Below, in pieces: positions 5,613-51,147 of a stretch of 64,000 nt of DNA. The position numbers were made by a program, and so were the translations under genes. The stretch lies in the NCBI GenBank assembly GCA_949299565.1, contig OX437086.1, positions 600,919 to 664,918 on the forward strand, given 5' to 3'. The notes under the pieces are model-generated. The model did not search any database. It was given only the letters and a program-made list of their open reading frames with translations, and was not told the DNA's origin. Position 1 is the first letter of the stretch. Each line of letters opens with the position of its first letter. The stretch is from an uncultured Bacillota bacterium. GTDB lineage: Bacteria; Bacillota_I; Bacilli_A; RFN20; CAG-826.

Positions 5613-8540
5613 ATGATGAAAAAAGTTTTATTCCTCGCCTTAGGCACTTTGATTGCGTTACCGGGTGCCTTTGCAAATTTCGCCACCCCCCCCTCTTTAA
5701 TCGTTGGGGCTGAAGCACCAAGTGGGCATCAAGAATATTCATTGGCCCACGATGCGCAGAATGTCCACGCTAAGTACATTACAGATTTAGGTATTGATGA
5801 TAAAACCGGATTAAATATCCAAGAAGCATTGGAGAAAGTTTCCCCCTATGCTGAAACAGTCGCTACCAATTATCAGCAAAATAATGTCTTCGACCTTTAT
5901 CACGAGAACTCATCTTATTCGCGGATTGTCGTTGAGGCTCCTGCAGCTGGTAGTTATCAAATTTCATTAAGCACCTTCGATGCAACATGGCAAATGCCGG
6001 TTATCGTTTATACGAATTCCTACGAGAATGTTTTGAATACGACGCTTTCTCAGACAACTTGGTGGAACAAAACGGAACTCCAATATTCAACGATTCCAGT
6101 CACTCTCAACGAAGGAAGGAATGTCATCGTCATTCAATATAATAGTTGGGGAAATCTTGTAACTTTTACGTTGCCGGAAGAATTGACGCTTGTCGACTTT
6201 GGCTCCAATGAAGAGGGAGTTTATAATCAAGCTGACTTCGCGTGGAATTGCACATGGGTTGAAAATCCGCAGGAATCGCTTTGGAACCCCGATATTTATC
6301 CGGAATTCACTTACATAAAAAATGACGGAAGTACGGAATATGAAGGAGCGGCTGAAATCAATTTTACGTCGCAAAGCACGACTGAAAGTTTGGATTTTAC
6401 GATTCAGGCCGATGTCCTTTCGGGTTTAGAAGCCACTCTCCGTTTTACCGTTAACGGTGCAGCGAGCGACTATACCTTCAATGTATCTGATCTCGGAAGT
6501 CGGGTAGACGTCCACCTTCCTTCTTATTTCCTTGACGAAATTGGTTTTGCAGGAGGAACTGAAACTAATCTTCGAATTTCAAATCCCAATGGCGGGCAAG
6601 AAATTCGTATTATTGAGATGCGTGAAAGTTCGGTGATTGATGAGGAACCAGTGGTGGTTGAAGGCGTTAAATACGAAGGCGAGAGCCTTAAAAATGCAGT
6701 TTTGGTCCATGGTCGTTCTTTGCCTCTCGAAGATGGAATTGCTTTAGACTGGTCGGGCGCTGGCATTGAATTCGATGTGACGGGCGGCGGCAGTGTCCGC
6801 GGTGCTTTTACGCTAGACGGCAACTCCAGCAACACTCGTTTTGTGGTGGAAATTAACGGCGAGTTCTCCCATTATTTCGTGCCTGGAAGCGATGTGTTGA
6901 TGCTCAGCGATTTACCGAGCGAAAGCACGCATGTCCGTCTATACAAGACGAGCGAAGCTAACGGCAATCTCGTCTCTTTGAATTCTTTGACCCATTTCTT
7001 GCCAGAAGGCGCGGAAGGAAGCATCACTAAAGCGACAGATACTTCGACTTCGAAGATGCTCTTCCTCGGTGCTTCAATCATCTCTGGCAATCAAATGAAC
7101 GCGGACGGCGATGAGGATCAATATCAAGCCTTCCCGACTTTATTAGCGAAAGCATGGAATGCGGATTCGGAGTTTGTTTCCGCCTCAGGACGCGGCGTTA
7201 TTCAAGGCACGCTCGGCGAGAGTGGATGGGCTTCTGACAACACTCATCAAATCTCGCATATTTGGACGAAGACTTCCTATTTCCGGGATCCAAACGCTGA
7301 ATATGACATTTCTTCTTATGTTCCTGATTTAATCGTGACGAACCTTGGAAATAACGACTTAGGACAATGCGATAACTTTGGGAATACGGAAGAAGATATT
7401 GCGAATGCTTCTAGAGATTTCTTAGCCTCGCTCCGCGAAATTTATCCATCCACCAAAATCATTTTCACATGGGGATTGGGCACCGTTCATAGCGCGACCG
7501 CCGCTGAGACTTTCAAAACAGCGATTGAAGGTTTAAACGATGAAAATGTCGCTTTCTTAAATTTTGCTCCGCAACTTCAAGGGCAAGGAGGTCATCCTTC
7601 TTATTACCAACACGATTACATCGCTTCTGAAATTTCGCGCTTATATGCCTCAATGTTAGAAACTGAGGATCCATATACCCGTAAATACACGTGGAGCAGT
7701 TATGAGGCTGAAGATGGCGAGATTTCCGGCGCTTCAATCACCAACGAAAATCCTGGCGTTGCCCAAAACTGGTCGGGAATGGCTTATGTTGGCGATTTCA
7801 ACACGAATTATTTAGAACTAGACGAAATTGCTTCCGATGCGAATAACGTCTCGCATATTAAACTCGATGTCTCCGTTCCGACGGACGGCGTCTATCAGCT
7901 GCAGATTGGTTATGCGACAAACGCCACGACGAGCATTGCTTATAACGTCGATGGCGGCGACTACACGCTCGTCGAGAATCTTAATTCTGGCGATTGGTGC
8001 GGTGGACACGGCGTCTATGCCACATCTAATGTTTCTTTAACGGCAGGCAATCATGCTTTGATCCTAACTGGACCCTTGAATAGCGGCTGGTTAAATTACG
8101 ATTACGTCAATCTTTTATACCTTTCAACTTCCGAGGCGGTTTTAGCCGCTGATACGTGGAGCGAGAATTTCTTAGGAGTCAGCGGAACAACATGCGATCC
8201 GACGGGCGTCAATATTTTCCCGACGGAAACTTGGAATCAATTCGCGGATTCTTTCGCTGAACTTTCTTCTGAAGCTAAAAGCCTTCTCGTCTCCTCTCCA
8301 AAATATGAGGCGATGCGTGAACGTTACACTTATATTCAAAGCAAATATCAATACGAGGACTTCCTTATTTCAAGCCAGGGCCGCGTTTTGAAGAACTCCT
8401 TGAATATCAATGCTCCGAGCGTGAATGACCCATTTGATTCTGATAATCTCGCTCTCTTCATTCTCGGCGGTTTATTGGGACTTGGTCTTTTAAGCGGCGC
8501 TTATTTCACGATCAAGAAGAGAAAAGACGCTCATAAATAA
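5613..8540 (+). CDS. Surface CE2-like SGNH esterase with carbohydrate-binding modules
   Basis: This is a large cell-surface protein. In order it has a signal peptide, a beta-sandwich region (about 60-330), a CE2-type N-terminal jelly roll starting near 350 (VHGRSL...LDWSGAGIEF), an SGNH hydrolase domain from about 480, a CBM35/6-like module from about 690 (YEAEDGEISG), and a C-terminal helix near 945-966 with a basic tail. The family removes acetyl groups from polysaccharides. Ser488 sits in GASI rather than the usual GDSI, and His661 lies in GGHPS without the usual Asp three residues before it, so a Ser-His dyad or weak activity is possible. AGGAGG at 5601-5606 fits ATG 5613 or 5616. A run of eight C lies in codons 25-27. 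Confidence 0.85.
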   Translation: MMKKVLFLALGTLIALPGAFANFATPPSLIVGAEAPSGHQEYSLAHDAQNVHAKYITDLGIDDKTGLNIQEALEKVSPYAETVATNYQQNNVFDLYHENSSYSRIVVEAPAAGSYQISLSTFDATWQMPVIVYTNSYENVLNTTLSQTTWWNKTELQYSTIPVTLNEGRNVIVIQYNSWGNLVTFTLPEELTLVDFGSNEEGVYNQADFAWNCTWVENPQESLWNPDIYPEFTYIKNDGSTEYEGAAEINFTSQSTTESLDFTIQADVLSGLEATLRFTVNGAASDYTFNVSDLGSRVDVHLPSYFLDEIGFAGGTETNLRISNPNGGQEIRIIEMRESSVIDEEPVVVEGVKYEGESLKNAVLVHGRSLPLEDGIALDWSGAGIEFDVTGGGSVRGAFTLDGNSSNTRFVVEINGEFSHYFVPGSDVLMLSDLPSESTHVRLYKTSEANGNLVSLNSLTHFLPEGAEGSITKATDTSTSKMLFLGASIISGNQMNADGDEDQYQAFPTLLAKAWNADSEFVSASGRGVIQGTLGESGWASDNTHQISHIWTKTSYFRDPNAEYDISSYVPDLIVTNLGNNDLGQCDNFGNTEEDIANASRDFLASLREIYPSTKIIFTWGLGTVHSATAAETFKTAIEGLNDENVAFLNFAPQLQGQGGHPSYYQHDYIASEISRLYASMLETEDPYTRKYTWSSYEAEDGEISGASITNENPGVAQNWSGMAYVGDFNTNYLELDEIASDANNVSHIKLDVSVPTDGVYQLQIGYATNATTSIAYNVDGGDYTLVENLNSGDWCGGHGVYATSNVSLTAGNHALILTGPLNSGWLNYDYVNLLYLSTSEAVLAADTWSENFLGVSGTTCDPTGVNIFPTETWNQFADSFAELSSEAKSLLVSSPKYEAMRERYTYIQSKYQYEDFLISSQGRVLKNSLNINAPSVNDPFDSDNLALFILGGLLGLGLLSGAYFTIKKRKDAHK
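5686..5693 (+). repeat. C8 homopolymer in signal-peptide region
   Basis: Eight consecutive C bases lie within codons 25-27 of the surface esterase gene. As written the frame is open. Reading by hand, gain of one C brings TGA within about ten codons and loss of one C brings TAA within five, so slippage would switch the protein off. Confidence 0.95.
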
Positions 8541-22876: not shown

Positions 22877-24214
22877 ATGAAATTAAGAAATGCAATCTTA
22901 AGCCTCGCTCTCGGCCTCGGAACGCTGGGGGGGGCAATCATTGGCACGACCGCGGCAACTGGACTCGTCGCTGAGCCAGTTGAGGTTGGTGCAACTGTTG
23001 AAATTTCTTATTATCGTCTCTACGGATCCTTTATAGATCCGGCTACGGGCAATAATTTGAACTGGGGAGCTCCTGGAACATCGTTCACTGAAACATACGA
23101 AGGCACAAACGGAAACACGTATTATGCTGTGACAGTCGATTTTGAAGAAGGAGATGAATTCAAAGTTGCTGCCGCAAGTGCTGAAGGCAGTCCAAACTGG
23201 AGCGATCAGCTTCCGTCTGTATCGTATAGCGAATATATTTCCACCGTCAGTGACTATGAGCCAAATTTCCACATCAACGTTTCCGGACGTTACAAGTTCG
23301 CCATCGACAGCACGATTGATAGTTATGGCGACAAGACGTATGGTTACGAAATCGAGTATATAGGCGAGGTTTCAACAGTCGAAGTTACTATTATGCTTCC
23401 TAACGGAGAAACACAGATTGTTGAGGTCAATCAAGGTTCAGTTTACAACCCAGGTTTCATCTTCCAAGACGGATATATCAACAACGGCTGGTTCTCTGAT
23501 GAAAGTCTTGAAACGCCGTATGTTCCCCAAGCCATCGATTCCCCAATAACGATTTATGGCGACTGGGAAGTAGCTCCTGAAGATTACACGATTTATTATG
23601 AAGGAACATACGACCACGCTCATTATTGGAATGAGGGTGGCCAAGGCGGCGGTACCGAGTGGAATGGTGTTGAAATGACACCGGTTGCTCGCGGTTATCA
23701 AAGTGATGTTCAATTATGGGAAGTTAAGATTCAAACTGAATATCAAGCGAATTACATCCTCTTCAATGACGGAACTAATCAAACAGAAAATTTGCCATTA
23801 GGTTCCACGACCGGTGTCTATGGCGATACAGGGCTTCTTGATGATAGCGCTGATAAGCTTGCAGCCTTAGCTTTCATCGATTATTTCGATGGTTTACGTC
23901 GTGATGGCGACATTTGCTATGTTTTAGATGATGTTGATACCTTCAACACTTTAAAGGGCTTATATGAAGCAGTCACCGATAAGACGCTTGTCCACGGAAT
24001 TGCCGATCTTGATGGCGGCGAAGGCGTTACAATCGGACAGACGATGAGCATGCTCCTTGCAAGAGAAGCGTCTGAAAACGGAAATGCACTCGGCATTGTG
24101 AATGACAATAACGGCGATCAAACAATGTGGATTGTTGTTGGAACAATATTGTTTGCGACCCTTGTTGCCGGCGTTGCCCTTTATGTTTCTAAACGTCGCA
24201 AAACAAATGCTTAA
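22877..24214 (+). CDS. Surface protein with CBM26-like and InlB-type modules
   Basis: This is a secreted, membrane-anchored protein of about 445 residues. The signal peptide covers 1-31; ATG 22877 is chosen because AAGGGGG lies just upstream. A beta-rich N-terminal domain is followed by a Listeria-Bacteroides type repeat (YINNGWFSDESLETPY...YGDWEV). Next is a module with the CBM26 starch-binding pattern (WNGVEMTPV...ILFNDGTNQTENLPL), and last a helix TILFATLVAGVALYV with tail SKRRKTNA. It may capture starch-like glycans for use by the intracellular pullulanase encoded at 43.5 kb; this is inference. A G8 tract lies in codons 17-20. Confidence 0.75.
   Translation: MKLRNAILSLALGLGTLGGAIIGTTAATGLVAEPVEVGATVEISYYRLYGSFIDPATGNNLNWGAPGTSFTETYEGTNGNTYYAVTVDFEEGDEFKVAAASAEGSPNWSDQLPSVSYSEYISTVSDYEPNFHINVSGRYKFAIDSTIDSYGDKTYGYEIEYIGEVSTVEVTIMLPNGETQIVEVNQGSVYNPGFIFQDGYINNGWFSDESLETPYVPQAIDSPITIYGDWEVAPEDYTIYYEGTYDHAHYWNEGGQGGGTEWNGVEMTPVARGYQSDVQLWEVKIQTEYQANYILFNDGTNQTENLPLGSTTGVYGDTGLLDDSADKLAALAFIDYFDGLRRDGDICYVLDDVDTFNTLKGLYEAVTDKTLVHGIADLDGGEGVTIGQTMSMLLAREASENGNALGIVNDNNGDQTMWIVVGTILFATLVAGVALYVSKRRKTNA
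22927..22934 (+). repeat. G8 homopolymer in signal-peptide region
   Basis: Eight G bases span codons 17-20 of the CBM26-like surface protein gene. The written frame is open. By hand, one extra G leads to TGA within about 17 codons and one fewer G leads to TAG within about 35 codons. Confidence 0.95.
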
Positions 24215-45948: not shown

Positions 45949-46725
45949 ATGTGCAAGTGGATACGCGTAATCTTCTTGATGGTTCCTTCTCTTATTAGGG
46001 CTTATTTTCCTTTGAGACGTTACGCAAAGCATCCTGAACGTTATTCGATCGAAGAACGATATTTTTTCCTTCAACGCCTCATTCAAAAAGTTCTTAAGGC
46101 CTTCCGCGTTGATTTAAAGGTTTATGAGGCTGAACGATTAGAAAATTTATGGAAAGAAGACGTTCCGTTTCTTTGGATTTGCAATCATTTAAGCGATCTT
46201 GACCCCTTGATTCTCATCGCGATTTCTAAAAAACCGATTTCTGTTGTCGCTAAAAAGGAGACGCGCCGCTATCCGTTCATCGGTTTAGCCGTTCAGGCTC
46301 TTGATGGCTATTTCTTGGATCGCGAAGATTTAAGAAGTTCTCTCCGAGTTATTCGCTCTCTTGAAAAGCGTCTTGAAACAGGGAAAGTGCCTTATGTGAT
46401 TTTCCCTGAGGGCACAAGGCAAAAAAATGCTGAAGAAGCACCTTTAGATTTTCATCCGGGTTCTTTTAAAGCAGCGACTCTTTCAAAACGCCCGCTTCTG
46501 ATTTCCTCAATTTATGGAACTTTCCGTGTTTTTCCAAAAGACACGAGTTGGAAACATTACCCAGTGCAGGTGAAAATTATTGATGTCATTAAAGATGATG
46601 TTTATGGCGGCATGGAGACGCCGGAGTTAGCCAAAATCGTGAAAGAAAAAGTTGAAACGGGCGTCAACTTTTTGAAAGAAAAAGACGTGAATTATTTGCA
46701 GAATAAAAAACATCTGCGAAGATAA
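45949..46725 (+). CDS. plsC: 1-acyl-sn-glycerol-3-phosphate acyltransferase
   Basis: A 258-residue lysophosphatidic acid acyltransferase making phosphatidic acid at the membrane. The catalytic NHLSDLD (NHxxxxD) lies near residue 77 and FPEGTR near 146. The N-terminal segment WIRVIFLMVPSLIRAYF is a likely membrane anchor. A terminator follows 17 bases after the stop. Confidence 0.9.
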   Translation: MCKWIRVIFLMVPSLIRAYFPLRRYAKHPERYSIEERYFFLQRLIQKVLKAFRVDLKVYEAERLENLWKEDVPFLWICNHLSDLDPLILIAISKKPISVVAKKETRRYPFIGLAVQALDGYFLDREDLRSSLRVIRSLEKRLETGKVPYVIFPEGTRQKNAEEAPLDFHPGSFKAATLSKRPLLISSIYGTFRVFPKDTSWKHYPVQVKIIDVIKDDVYGGMETPELAKIVKEKVETGVNFLKEKDVNYLQNKKHLRR

Positions 46726-46742
46726 TATGAGATTTTGCAGTT

Positions 46743-46768
46743 GAGCAAAAAACTTTGCTCTTCTTTTT
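46743..46768 (+). terminator. Rho-independent terminator after plsC
   Basis: Perfect 7-bp stem GAGCAAA/TTTGCTC with loop AAAC, followed by TTCTTTTT. Confidence 0.88.
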
Positions 46769-46783
46769 GATTGCGCGAAAACC

Positions 46784-46813
46784 TTGACAAAATTGCGCGG
46801 GGGGGGGTAAACT
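46784..46813 (+). promoter_or_regulatory. SipW-operon promoter with poly-G spacer
   Basis: Consensus TTGACA at 46784-46789 and TAAACT at 46808-46813 are spaced 18 bp; the spacer ends in nine G. Change of the G run by one alters the spacing to 17 or 19, a known mode of promoter phase variation. Two direct repeats ATTGCGCG at 46770-46777 and 46792-46799, 22 bp apart, flank the -35. The predicted leader to GTG 46876 is about 56 bases. Confidence 0.7.
46799..46807 (+). repeat. G9 homopolymer in promoter spacer
   Basis: Nine consecutive G bases lie between the -35 and -10 elements; this is the longest G/C run I noticed in the window. Confidence 0.95.
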
Positions 46814-46875
46814 CCTTACCATTCTCTTCGAAATGTAAAGATTTTGAAGGAGAATTTGCAAAAAAGAGGGCACAC

Positions 46876-47427
46876 GTGGTGAAAAAGTTCGGAGGTCTCT
46901 TCATTCTTCCGTTTTTCGCGGCTGCCTCGCTTGTCGGCAGCGGTTTTTGTCTTTGGATTTTTTCGCCGGATGTCATTCATACTTCGATTGACGGACGTTT
47001 TAACTTGTTAGTTGAAGAGAAAGTTGAAGAAAGCGTAGGAAATTTAAACATCGATGACCGCGCTTTTTCTTTAGAAGTAAATCAAAACGGAATTTCGACG
47101 ATCGGTGGTCTTTCTCTTGAATTTATTCCTTCAAGTTTAGATCTAACTTTAGAATTTTCTTATGAGATTCAAATTGATTCTCTGCTCCATCATTATTTAT
47201 ACCCTCTTGACGCTTCATATGATGAGGCGATTGCCGATAATTATATCTATCATTTTTCTTGGGGAAGCGAATATCAAAACGGCGAATATCATGAGTTGAT
47301 AGTGCCAACGTTTGCATATCAAAATCTAAATGTTATTCCTGATGAGACAAGCGAATATACTGCCATCAACGAGCTTTTAAAAAGTGGCGACCATCTTCTT
47401 TTTCGTTTTGAGGTAGTTGCTAGATGA
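46876..47427 (+). CDS. Small secreted protein with SipW-type signal peptide (substrate 1)
   Basis: About 184 residues. The N-terminus is VVKKFGGLFILPFF followed by GSGFCLWIF, an uncleaved-looking hydrophobic segment like those processed by SipW peptidases (compare GSAFASWHF and GAGFATWVF in its neighbours). The rest is beta-rich and secreted. GTG 46876 (or 46879) is chosen because GAGGG lies 5 bases upstream; the open frame extends further 5' without a better start. First gene of the operon; overlaps the next by 4 bases. Family not recognised. Confidence 0.65.
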   Translation: MVKKFGGLFILPFFAAASLVGSGFCLWIFSPDVIHTSIDGRFNLLVEEKVEESVGNLNIDDRAFSLEVNQNGISTIGGLSLEFIPSSLDLTLEFSYEIQIDSLLHHYLYPLDASYDEAIADNYIYHFSWGSEYQNGEYHELIVPTFAYQNLNVIPDETSEYTAINELLKSGDHLLFRFEVVAR

Positions 47428-49658
47428 AAAGAGGCGCGCGTTTTTCTTTTATATTTTTGCCGTTAGTGGCTTTAGGCGCGGCAGTCGGTTCTGCTTTTGC
47501 GAGTTGGCATTTTTATGGTGAAACATTTATTGAGACGACGCCTGAAGTCAATGTCGATGACATCAAGGAAAATTGGTATTTCGGACGTGATGATCTCACG
47601 CAGTATGAAGAATATACAATCTATTTCTTTCCACAGCCGCGCGTCGCTTATTCTGGCGATCAAAACGCACCTTTAAGCGTTGAAGGGTGGAATCCGTTAG
47701 AACGATATACGACCACTGATGAACCTAACGCTTCGTTTTCGAACGGGACAGGCGATTATCCAGTTAACATCGTCCATTACGGACGTTATGGGCAATTCGA
47801 CGGTTTTTTTGCGGATGAAAGCCAAGAGATTTCACGTTTCGGTTATAAAACTTGGAACGGGATTTATCAAATTACGCCGTCTGAACTAAACGCTATCGGC
47901 TCGCCGTCATGCTTGATGCGCGATGGTGGGGGATATAACGAATCGACGGGAGAGCAAGGCTTTGCCGGTTCTTTTATCGGTTGGTCATATTCACGCGAAG
48001 TAGCCTGTCATCACGGCTATCATTGGCAAGGAGATTACCATTTATTCAATCCGAATATGCCGCTCAGTTATTACGATAACCTTTCGGGCGTCGATAGTGG
48101 ACAAGGGGTCGATGGTTCAAAGCAAGGCGATAACGTGATTTATTTATACGCGATTTATACTTCTGGCAAAGACTACGCGAAATATGATTCAAGCGCTGAT
48201 CCGCGCTTATATAACAATCAAGATCTTTCGGGAAATGGACGTTTTCATTCAATACGATTAGATCGAAGCAATAACAGCGACTCGCTTTATGGATCGGCTG
48301 AAACCTTTACTTATCAAAATAGTCAAGGAATCGAGGAAACAAATTATATTTATTCTTTCCGGAATGTTCAGATAAATTCGCTTGAAGACACATTGAACAT
48401 CAGCGTCGGGGCAGTGACCGATAAAGGTTGGGACGGCGCTTGGTCATTAGAAAACTTAGCTATTGATCGAAACGGCACAGCAAGCGGCTCTGGTTTTTAC
48501 CCAGGGTATTACAATATTTTTGCTTATGTCGTGTCTCAAAGAGAAGAAATTCCCGATTATGTCTCCTCTGACCGCAGTTGGGACTGGACTCATTATGAAT
48601 ATGAGCCGAATAATGAAGACTGGAACGTTCCATACAATCAAGAAATAAGCGAAGCTCAAGACTTTTTAGAAGCTTTTAGTTCTGGTAAATCGGTTGTCTA
48701 CAGCAACAATTATCAAGCGTTATCCTCGTGGACTTTCAATGGTGAAAGCGATGCTTACGATTATGAGAACGGAAGACAATATCCAGGAACCTATGGCGGT
48801 CTTTTTGATGGTTATCATCGTGTTTATAACGCTTCTATTTATTTTGTTGTCGAGCAGATGTTTGATTTCCGCTTTATCGGAGGTCCTCTTGAGAGCTTTG
48901 ATTACAACAATTCAGACTATTCGTTCTTATTGGAAACTGAGCAAGACCTCACTAATTTCGAACGGGACATTCATTTTGAAGCGACGACGCACAATCGTTA
49001 TTTTGCTTATGATTGGACTGATCCAACGAGTGGAACCTCTTACACCAATTATTTTTGTTATGATGTCTTCTCGATTGCACCTTCCTTAGAACCGCCTACT
49101 TATGAAATCAATATCGACTCTTCTTCTACTGAATATATAGGTAAGCTCAGTGATTTAAGTGAAGAAGAGGTCAATCAACACGTAAGGATTGATGAGAATT
49201 TAAGTAGTGAACGCGATGAAATTCTTTCGACGCTCATTTATTTGAAGGGCGCTCCCGGTTATTATCGTTTCAACTTAAAGGTTGAATATGATCCTGATTA
49301 TAGTCTTGGAGGCGCTTCATCCTCACCGATTAAGAGCGTGACCATTGGAGCGACACCTTTATTGCATAATTGTTTTATCAAGATTTATCGGCCAAACAAT
49401 CAAAATTTTTCCTATGATGAGGATGGTTTTATTGTCCACGAAGGGACGAATCCGGACTTCGTGAGTGAATGCGCAATCGGCACTAATTTTGATGAAATAA
49501 ACTTTTCCAATCAAAGCTTCCGCACTCTTTTGACTCAGTGGAATCAAGAAGGATTACATCTTGTCGATCATTTGACAAATGAAGTTGTTACTCCTGAGTA
49601 TTTGTCAACGAGAACTGTAGATAAAAACTACATTTTCTATCTGAAGGAGGCACAGTGA
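47424..49658 (+). CDS. Large secreted protein with SipW-type signal peptide (substrate 2)
   Basis: A 744-residue protein rich in Tyr, Asn, Asp and Ser, beta-rich, with few Lys. The signal region is MKRGARFSFIFLPLVALGAA then GSAFASWHF. No C-terminal helix or anchor is seen. No known domain was recognised. Repeated aromatic/acidic segments suggest an extracellular structural or adhesive role, but this is a guess. It overlaps upstream and downstream genes in ATGA/TGATG arrangements, so expression is coupled to the signal peptidase. Confidence 0.8.
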   Translation: MKRGARFSFIFLPLVALGAAVGSAFASWHFYGETFIETTPEVNVDDIKENWYFGRDDLTQYEEYTIYFFPQPRVAYSGDQNAPLSVEGWNPLERYTTTDEPNASFSNGTGDYPVNIVHYGRYGQFDGFFADESQEISRFGYKTWNGIYQITPSELNAIGSPSCLMRDGGGYNESTGEQGFAGSFIGWSYSREVACHHGYHWQGDYHLFNPNMPLSYYDNLSGVDSGQGVDGSKQGDNVIYLYAIYTSGKDYAKYDSSADPRLYNNQDLSGNGRFHSIRLDRSNNSDSLYGSAETFTYQNSQGIEETNYIYSFRNVQINSLEDTLNISVGAVTDKGWDGAWSLENLAIDRNGTASGSGFYPGYYNIFAYVVSQREEIPDYVSSDRSWDWTHYEYEPNNEDWNVPYNQEISEAQDFLEAFSSGKSVVYSNNYQALSSWTFNGESDAYDYENGRQYPGTYGGLFDGYHRVYNASIYFVVEQMFDFRFIGGPLESFDYNNSDYSFLLETEQDLTNFERDIHFEATTHNRYFAYDWTDPTSGTSYTNYFCYDVFSIAPSLEPPTYEINIDSSSTEYIGKLSDLSEEEVNQHVRIDENLSSERDEILSTLIYLKGAPGYYRFNLKVEYDPDYSLGGASSSPIKSVTIGATPLLHNCFIKIYRPNNQNFSYDEDGFIVHEGTNPDFVSECAIGTNFDEINFSNQSFRTLLTQWNQEGLHLVDHLTNEVVTPEYLSTRTVDKNYIFYLKEAQ

Positions 49659-50575
49659 TGGGAAGCGCTTCATGGATTGCTTTCGTGGTAGCACTTATAG
49701 CTTTGATTCTTTTTGCTGTCGTCTACATCGTGCTCTTCGTTCAACTGCGCAAGGTACGTTCACGCTTGATTTTGGGCGGACTTGAAGATCAAGAAATCAA
49801 GGACGAGCTTTTTCGTGATTATGGTGAAGCTCTTAAGAAAAATAGCGAGCAAAAATTTTCTGATTTTTATAAGAAAAAGAAAAACCATGAACGACATCTC
49901 GACTATTTAGCCAACGCTTTGGCGATTCTTATTGCCGTTATTTCCTTAGCGGGTCTAACGTTTTCTTTAGTCTCCCGCGGACTCAATAACCAAGTGAATC
50001 TCAATGGAACGACTCTTCTTATCGTTCCGACGGATTCGATGGAAGAAAAAGCAGTCACCAACGACTATTTAGTTAAATATGATTTAGACAACCAAATTCA
50101 ATCCGGTTCTTTGATTGCGGTGGAAGAAAAAGAAACATACGAAGTTTTCGATGTTTTAGCCTTCAATGTCGACGGAGTGACTTATGTTCATCGCTTGATT
50201 CTCATCGAAGAAGAAAACGGAGAAACGCTTTACACGTTTAGAGGCGACGCCAACCCAACCTCTCTTCTAAAAGAAACGCGCGTCAGAAGCGAACAAATCA
50301 TTGGTAAGTGGAATGGTTTTCAGAATGAAACGTTGGGACTATGGATTATGTATCTTCAGTCGGGTATTGGGATTATTTCCTTGGTTTTAGCCTTTGCGGT
50401 TGTAACGGTCTATTCGTCTTATTACAACAAAATCAGCCGTTTGAAAGCGGAACGTTACGAATTTTATCTTCCGCATGTTGACGAGTTATATCGCGCAGAA
50501 AACGCGCGGCGAATTGCTAATGGAGAGCCGCCTCTTTTCGAGGCTTCTCATAGACGGAATCGAAAGGAGGAATAA
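49658..50575 (+). CDS. SipW-type (S26B) signal peptidase I
   Basis: A 305-residue membrane peptidase. Topology: helix near 5-28, a charged cytosolic segment (30-85), helix near 88-110, the catalytic domain, then a helix near 235-257 and a basic tail. Ser127 (PTDSME), His178 (YVHRLI, in place of Lys) and the GDAN box near 197 fit the Ser-His-Asp S26B enzymes such as Bacillus SipW and archaeal/ER signal peptidases. ATG 49658 follows GAAGGAGG. It probably processes the three co-encoded proteins. It is much longer than SipW (about 190 residues) because of the N-terminal extension. Confidence 0.82.
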   Translation: MGSASWIAFVVALIALILFAVVYIVLFVQLRKVRSRLILGGLEDQEIKDELFRDYGEALKKNSEQKFSDFYKKKKNHERHLDYLANALAILIAVISLAGLTFSLVSRGLNNQVNLNGTTLLIVPTDSMEEKAVTNDYLVKYDLDNQIQSGSLIAVEEKETYEVFDVLAFNVDGVTYVHRLILIEEENGETLYTFRGDANPTSLLKETRVRSEQIIGKWNGFQNETLGLWIMYLQSGIGIISLVLAFAVVTVYSSYYNKISRLKAERYEFYLPHVDELYRAENARRIANGEPPLFEASHRRNRKEE

Positions 50576-50580
50576 TTTTT

Positions 50581-51147
50581 ATGAAAACAAAGCGATTCCT
50601 ATTAGGTTTCCTGCTTCCAAGTCTTGCCTTGGTGAGTGTTGTGGGAGCAGGTTTTGCGACTTGGGTCTTCGATGGAGAGTATACGCCAATCAATCAAACG
50701 ATCGGTGTAACGATCGAAGATAAAGTCAATGGAGGAGAGTTAACTATTAATCAGGAAAGTTTAACTCTCAATCTCGATCAACCAGCCACGGAATTAAACG
50801 AGGCCGGAACTGGCATTACCTTGCGCAATGACGGAAGCACGATCAGTGAATTAAGCGGCAGTTATAGCGGTGAAATCCCAGCCGGTTATGAATTTACGCT
50901 CACTTACACTTTAGAACTCGGCGATGTCGCGACTTACGTCAGCGCCGTAACCGCGGGGGAAGTTGGAGTTTTCACTGGTAGCGGCCCGCATTCTTGGACA
51001 TTAGATGTCACAACGTTGAATTTTGCTTATGTGACTCCAGACATTGCCACGAATGAAGGAGCATACGACACGATGTATGCCGCTTTGAGTGAAGACGTGC
51101 ACAACATCACTTTGACGATTGAAGGCAATTTCAGCGTCATTGAATAA
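50581..51147 (+). CDS. Small secreted protein with SipW-type signal peptide (substrate 3)
   Basis: A 188-residue protein starting MKTKRFLLGFLLPSLAL and then GAGFATWVFDGEYTP, the atypical signal seen in the two other operon proteins. The mature part is acidic, Thr/Ser/Gly-rich and beta-predicted, reminiscent of CalY/TasA-type fibre subunits in composition and context, not in clear sequence. A strong AAAGGAGGAA precedes the ATG. Last gene before the terminator. Confidence 0.7.
   Translation: MKTKRFLLGFLLPSLALVSVVGAGFATWVFDGEYTPINQTIGVTIEDKVNGGELTINQESLTLNLDQPATELNEAGTGITLRNDGSTISELSGSYSGEIPAGYEFTLTYTLELGDVATYVSAVTAGEVGVFTGSGPHSWTLDVTTLNFAYVTPDIATNEGAYDTMYAALSEDVHNITLTIEGNFSVIE

Follow-up and report, generated by a model that had tools for sequence, protein, structure and literature searches.

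In porA of Neisseria meningitidis, a poly-G tract lies between the -35 and -10 elements, and a change in its length shifts their spacing off the 17-bp optimum (PMC7864442). The same holds for tp0126 of Treponema pallidum, an OmpW homologue, in which the two elements are separated by a poly-G tract and transcription is best at 17 bp (PMC7864442). The length of a promoter homopolymer also alters the transcript level of Neisseria fetA/frpB, whose poly-C tract, like the poly-G tracts of porA and tp0126, varies the -35/-10 distance around 17 bp (PMC5320596), and of Bordetella fim, whose promoter contains a C-stretch (PMC1891110).

The promoter described here was originally predicted to use a mechanism known in other bacteria, and its arrangement does match that published for porA and tp0126 (PMC7864442, PMC5320596). 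As in both, a G tract occupies the spacer, and the homopolymer of at least ~8 bp between -35 and -10 that marks the porA type is present (G9). However, porA encodes one porin in a Gram-negative pathogen, whereas the target here is a SipW/TasA-like operon in a lineage of uncultured Bacilli and switching is inferred; tp0126, from another phylum and with another target, has been tested experimentally. The fetA/frpB and fim promoters also carry a homopolymer, but of C, and the fim tract is thought to work through activator distance.

With regard to its genes, the locus resembles the tapA-sipW-tasA operon of Bacillus subtilis, in that a dedicated SipW-type peptidase is encoded beside its secreted substrates, although gene content and order differ. 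To our knowledge, no homopolymer switch is known at the B. subtilis promoter. In the open-access literature that we searched, the coverage of which is incomplete, phase variation is not reported for SipW or RF39, and no homopolymer switch is described for gut Bacilli or for uncultured ones. We consider it likely that the G9 tract serves as a switch for slipped-strand phase variation, in which slippage within the population and the effect on transcription are inferred. It resembles the porA-type homopolymer switches in promoter spacers, here in a new lineage and on a new target, a SipW/TasA-like operon; two further marks of that type, mixed tract lengths in one population and expression that depends on length, are inferred.

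A nine-G tract in the promoter spacer of a SipW operon

The window, i.e., the whole stretch of 64,000 nucleotides that was analysed, contains the following elements of the promoter region.

46743..46768, plus strand: intrinsic terminator of the upstream acyltransferase gene, with a 7-bp stem and a T-rich tail (MFE -9.5 kcal/mol, z -2.2)
46784..46789, plus strand: -35 element TTGACA, consensus (sequence reading and promoter scan)
46799..46807, plus strand: G9 homopolymer tract in the promoter spacer, adjoining the -10 (sequence and G-run searches)
46808..46813, plus strand: -10 element TAAACT, at an 18-bp spacer (17 bp would take 8 G)

Direct reading of positions 46784-46813 gives TTGACA, AAATTGCGC (46790-46798), the nine Gs and TAAACT, which bears out the predicted consensus -35, 18-bp spacing and nine-G run touching the -10. 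The -10 element is only moderate. In a scan of 46000-50000, this promoter ranks among the top two sigma-70-type matches (10/12) and is, among the matches listed, the sole plus-strand candidate between the upstream gene and the operon; as a class, such matches are close to chance in this region (11 found, 8.0 expected). Downstream of the acyltransferase gene, whose end is at 46725, comes the stem-loop with its T-rich tail. Since the stem-loop terminates the preceding unit, the promoter candidate starts a new transcription unit.

Directly downstream lie three secreted TasA-like proteins and a SipW-type peptidase, which agrees with the secreted-protein operon expected behind the promoter.

46876..47427, plus strand: operon gene 1, secreted, SipW-type signal VKKFGGLFILPFFAAASLVGSGFCLWIF (GTG start inferred; GTG 46873 equally possible)
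47424..49658, plus strand: secreted protein of 744 aa, SipW-type signal LVALGAAVGSAFASW (ORF translation)
49655..50575, plus strand: SipW-type signal peptidase I (SM and HR motifs, weak NCBIfam match, homologues in relatives)
50581..51147, plus strand: TasA-like secreted protein of 188 aa, signal VVGAGFATWVFDG (ORF translation)

The operon ends at 51147, and the next gene is on the opposite strand. The peptidase is nearest to SipW and the archaeal/ER-type signal peptidase I, with visible SM and HR catalytic motifs; its best NCBIfam matches, SipW (1.6e-10) and sigpep_I_arch (2.6e-9), both fall under the curated cut-offs. A profile search found no match in Pfam/NCBIfam for gene 1, and none to curated families for the 744-aa protein. 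The three genes adjoining the peptidase carry SipW-type signals (G-x-G-F-A-x-W), a pattern that is repeated in relatives.

An open frame of 218 codons leads from TTG 46771 through the tract into gene 1, and slippage might thus alter an N-terminal extension of the protein and not transcription. We regard such a translational switch as very unlikely: the TTG is placed between the terminator and the -35 element and has no evident ribosome-binding site, a start near 46873-46876 suits the signal peptide, and the orthologous first gene is intact in two relatives whose promoters carry G9 (G060) and G8 (G093).

Proposed effect of slippage at the G9 tract

In the transcriptional switch that we favour, replication slippage would add single Gs to the G9 tract or drop them, and so change the -35/-10 spacing at the only recognisable promoter of the operon. 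Eight Gs would give 17 bp, predicted to be strong; nine, the assembled state, give 18 bp and a predicted weaker promoter; ten would give 19 bp and a weak one, an order of promoter strength that is inferred. Cells of one population would flip randomly between making and not making the secreted surface proteins together with their dedicated signal peptidase. An 18-bp spacer is not wholly inactive in known promoters, so the effect of the switch could be graded. That slippage takes place within a population, that it affects transcription, that the proteins act at the surface and that switching is of advantage are all inferences.

The mismatch-recognition domain MutS_I was not found in this complete genome or in 24 congeners (G000-G024 altogether), with positive controls detected; of 16 genomes that represent the order's other families, 14 have it. 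Mismatch repair has been lost at the level of the genus, and such a loss should increase slippage at a G9 tract.

Poly-G tracts at the SipW loci of relatives

We looked for the peptidase in 60 relatives and read 40 loci, including as much as ~6.5 kb of upstream sequence (378,524 bp). In these loci, tracts of seven or more Gs number 17 on the operon strand versus 3 on the other, and for 12 of the 17 sense tracts the operon's first secreted-protein gene begins within ~350 nt downstream (G060, G004, G053, G048, G059, G040, G019 twice, G030, G035, G011 and G029). Three further tracts (G032, G018 and G026) are very probably also at the start of a SipW operon, where the first gene was masked by an overlapping antisense ORF in ORF picking, and one additional case (G093) was found via its promoter. 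The tracts at SipW operon starts range from G7 to G11 and occur in four families of the order; several have a TTGACA at a plausible distance, with a spacer of 18 bp in G060, G004 and G048, 17 bp in G093, and 15 bp in G053 and G040. Over half of the SipW loci examined have no poly-G tract.

A DNA search of the 60 relatives gave no alignable orthologue of the promoter region in the window, which leaves its tract without a direct counterpart for comparison. Among the relatives, the orthologous SipW-operon promoters of G060 (G9) and G093 (G8) are identical at 114 of 120 flanking positions (57/60 on either side), with no indel outside the tract. Likewise, G030 has G11 and G035 has G10, and G032 has G8 and G018 G7, with one flank indel; the latter comparison also includes G011 (G7) and G022 (G5). 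A lipoprotein promoter differs by three Gs (G7 in G224, G10 in G065). Variation of tract length among related genomes with conserved flanks, another mark of the porA type, is thus seen in the relatives' orthologous SipW promoters. The proposed check of run length across relatives, carried out on assemblies, finds it not invariant, with G7-G11 and orthologues one G apart. Length mixtures within a species remain unproven, as only assemblies were available, without read- or strain-level data for the locus. The predicted phase-variable switch is supported by the layout, its recurrence and these differences in tract length; the switching itself is an inference.

Long G runs in the genome

The genome is complete, as a single contig of 1,061,998 bp (1.06 Mb). 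Pattern searches, in which overlapping 8-mer matches were read, give 13 runs of at least eight Gs on either strand; the longest are G9, of which there are four. Their number is near that expected from composition (about 9 for both strands in a zero-order model); it is their placement that is non-random. Six of the 13, including the tract of the SipW operon, are intergenic and all promoter-like, with a TTG-containing -35-like sequence before the run, a TA---T hexamer 0-3 nt after it, and spacers that read by eye as 15 bp in four and 18 bp in two. Behind these runs lie a polysaccharide operon (flippase and glycosyltransferase), small membrane proteins, the SipW operon and, at a distance of ~230 nt, a flavin-reductase-like gene. 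Another five fall where the signal peptide or lipoprotein N-terminus of a secreted protein is encoded, and slippage there would shift the reading frame.

Two G8 runs in the window, at 22927-22934 and 5686-5693 (C8 on the coding strand for the latter), fall in the N-terminal signal regions of two secreted proteins, and their genes are candidates for translational phase variation, as a slip of one base would put them out of frame. The promoter-like G9 ahead of the polysaccharide operon, with its flippase-type protein and glycosyltransferase (L037/L064, G000:C1:279973), is a candidate second switch, acting on surface sugars. One G8 run (L049, G000:C1:963872) is situated where a glmM-like gene ends and a glmS-like gene starts. 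We note two paralogous promoter-leader regions (L050 and L053; G000:C1:41228 and 612615), one with a poly-G tract, TTGCATTTCA-G9-CTTATAAT, and the other G-free, TTGCATTTCAGAGGAATCCTATAAT; the gene behind L050 has ACG at the site of the ATG in the L053 paralogue.

Poly-G promoters in other genomes

In many genomes of the order, G8 followed by TANNNT within five bases is above the reversed control. Across 279 genomes of the order there are 22 copies of the pattern TTGACN-N-G7-TATAAT, and across 395 genomes of the class 46 copies of TTGACA-N-G8-TATAAT, versus none for either reversed pattern. These reversed controls (46:0 and 22:0) bear strongly against the reading that a G run expected from composition happens to adjoin promoter-like sequence. 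The near-zero-order number of long runs in the genome and the near-chance level of promoter-like matches around the operon are in keeping with chance, but the promoter position of six of the 13 runs, the location of five at the N-termini of secreted proteins and the recurrence of the arrangement at SipW operons of other species are not, and we find chance scarcely credible.

In GTDB r220, with one genome per species, there are at least 119 poly-G promoter stretches; among the matches listed, most are from metagenome-assembled genomes (MAGs) of gut Bacilli and Clostridia, and Saccharibacteria, Spirochaetia, Streptobacillus and a few others are also present. A sense ORF follows within 300 nt in 134 of 144 poly-G promoters, and 101 of these 134 genes (75%) begin with an N-terminal hydrophobic (signal/TM) segment, versus 119 of 513 neighbouring ORFs (23%; odds ratio 10). 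The sense ORFs and this enrichment together make them seem working promoters, mainly of secreted or surface proteins, and TasA-like proteins (signal ...GATFAYF) are among the genes behind them.

Ordinary TTGACA/TATAAT promoters without G runs in the same DNA have a spacer peak at 17 bp (15 of 29), whereas poly-G promoters, with tracts of G7-G14, are spread broadly over 13-21 bp, a breadth as predicted for a drifting tract. In the discovery set of 138 perfect-hexamer poly-G promoters, only seven have 17 bp, in a trough between 15-16 and 18-19 bp; these two modes may reflect different lineages. A second, independent set, made up of 41 promoters of Bacilli that do not belong to the order (three at 15 bp, seven at 17, 13 at 18, 15 at 19 and three at 20) is broad and shifted towards longer spacers, with 17 bp still below the baseline (p 0.004) but no trough. 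Avoidance of 17 bp, by which promoters would be mostly sampled in the OFF state, was dropped because the trough is absent from the independent set, and only the breadth is claimed.

A poly-G tract might instead be a fixed structural or operator element, e.g., a regulator site or a spacer geometry preferred by RNA polymerase, and not a mutable switch. The TTGACA-N-Gn-TATAAT layout is indeed strongly recurrent, and three promoters of the genome under study share TTG(C/A)ATTTCA before the tract and keep an equal -35/-10 distance despite G8 or G9; this motif with G8/9 was not found in 96 relatives and is confined to the one genome. A fixed element is nevertheless unlikely, given the wide variation of both tract length and total spacing, the different tract lengths of orthologous promoters with conserved flanks, the lack of conservation in the non-G part of the spacer (130 different contexts in the 138 promoters), and the paralogous promoter L053, which has no G run at all.

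Read as a mutable switch, the tract in the window is probably one of many in gut Bacillota. We lean, with limited assurance, towards the view that promoters with a poly-G spacer form a general phase-variation system in gut Bacillota, so far overlooked, which acts at random on secreted and surface proteins and repeatedly has the SipW/TasA-like operon as its target; seemingly, the system also exists in some Saccharibacteria and others. Discussion of random switching in gut Bacillota has mostly concerned invertible promoters. If the tracts switch, they would add a second layer of stochastic surface variation in many uncultured gut lineages, which a consensus genome assembly hides and which counts of G-tract length in existing metagenome reads would show. 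In host-associated relatives of Bacillus, random on/off control would then extend to TasA-like proteins of the matrix or surface, which in Bacillus itself are a biofilm theme.

Two observations concern the spread of these promoters within and between genomes. On the minus strand of one contig (G601 C6, 8343-27066), seven near-identical TTGACAAAT(T/C)GAATAC-G8/9-TATAAT promoters are found in 19 kb, six of them ~2 kb apart, with an eighth copy on C41; this is probably a tandem gene family with its own switch for each copy. In addition, three genomes from three families (G087, G065 and G465) have the promoter start TTGACAAAAATATGC in common, after which the tract is G10, G11 or interrupted; this suggests mobile genes that transport their switch along.
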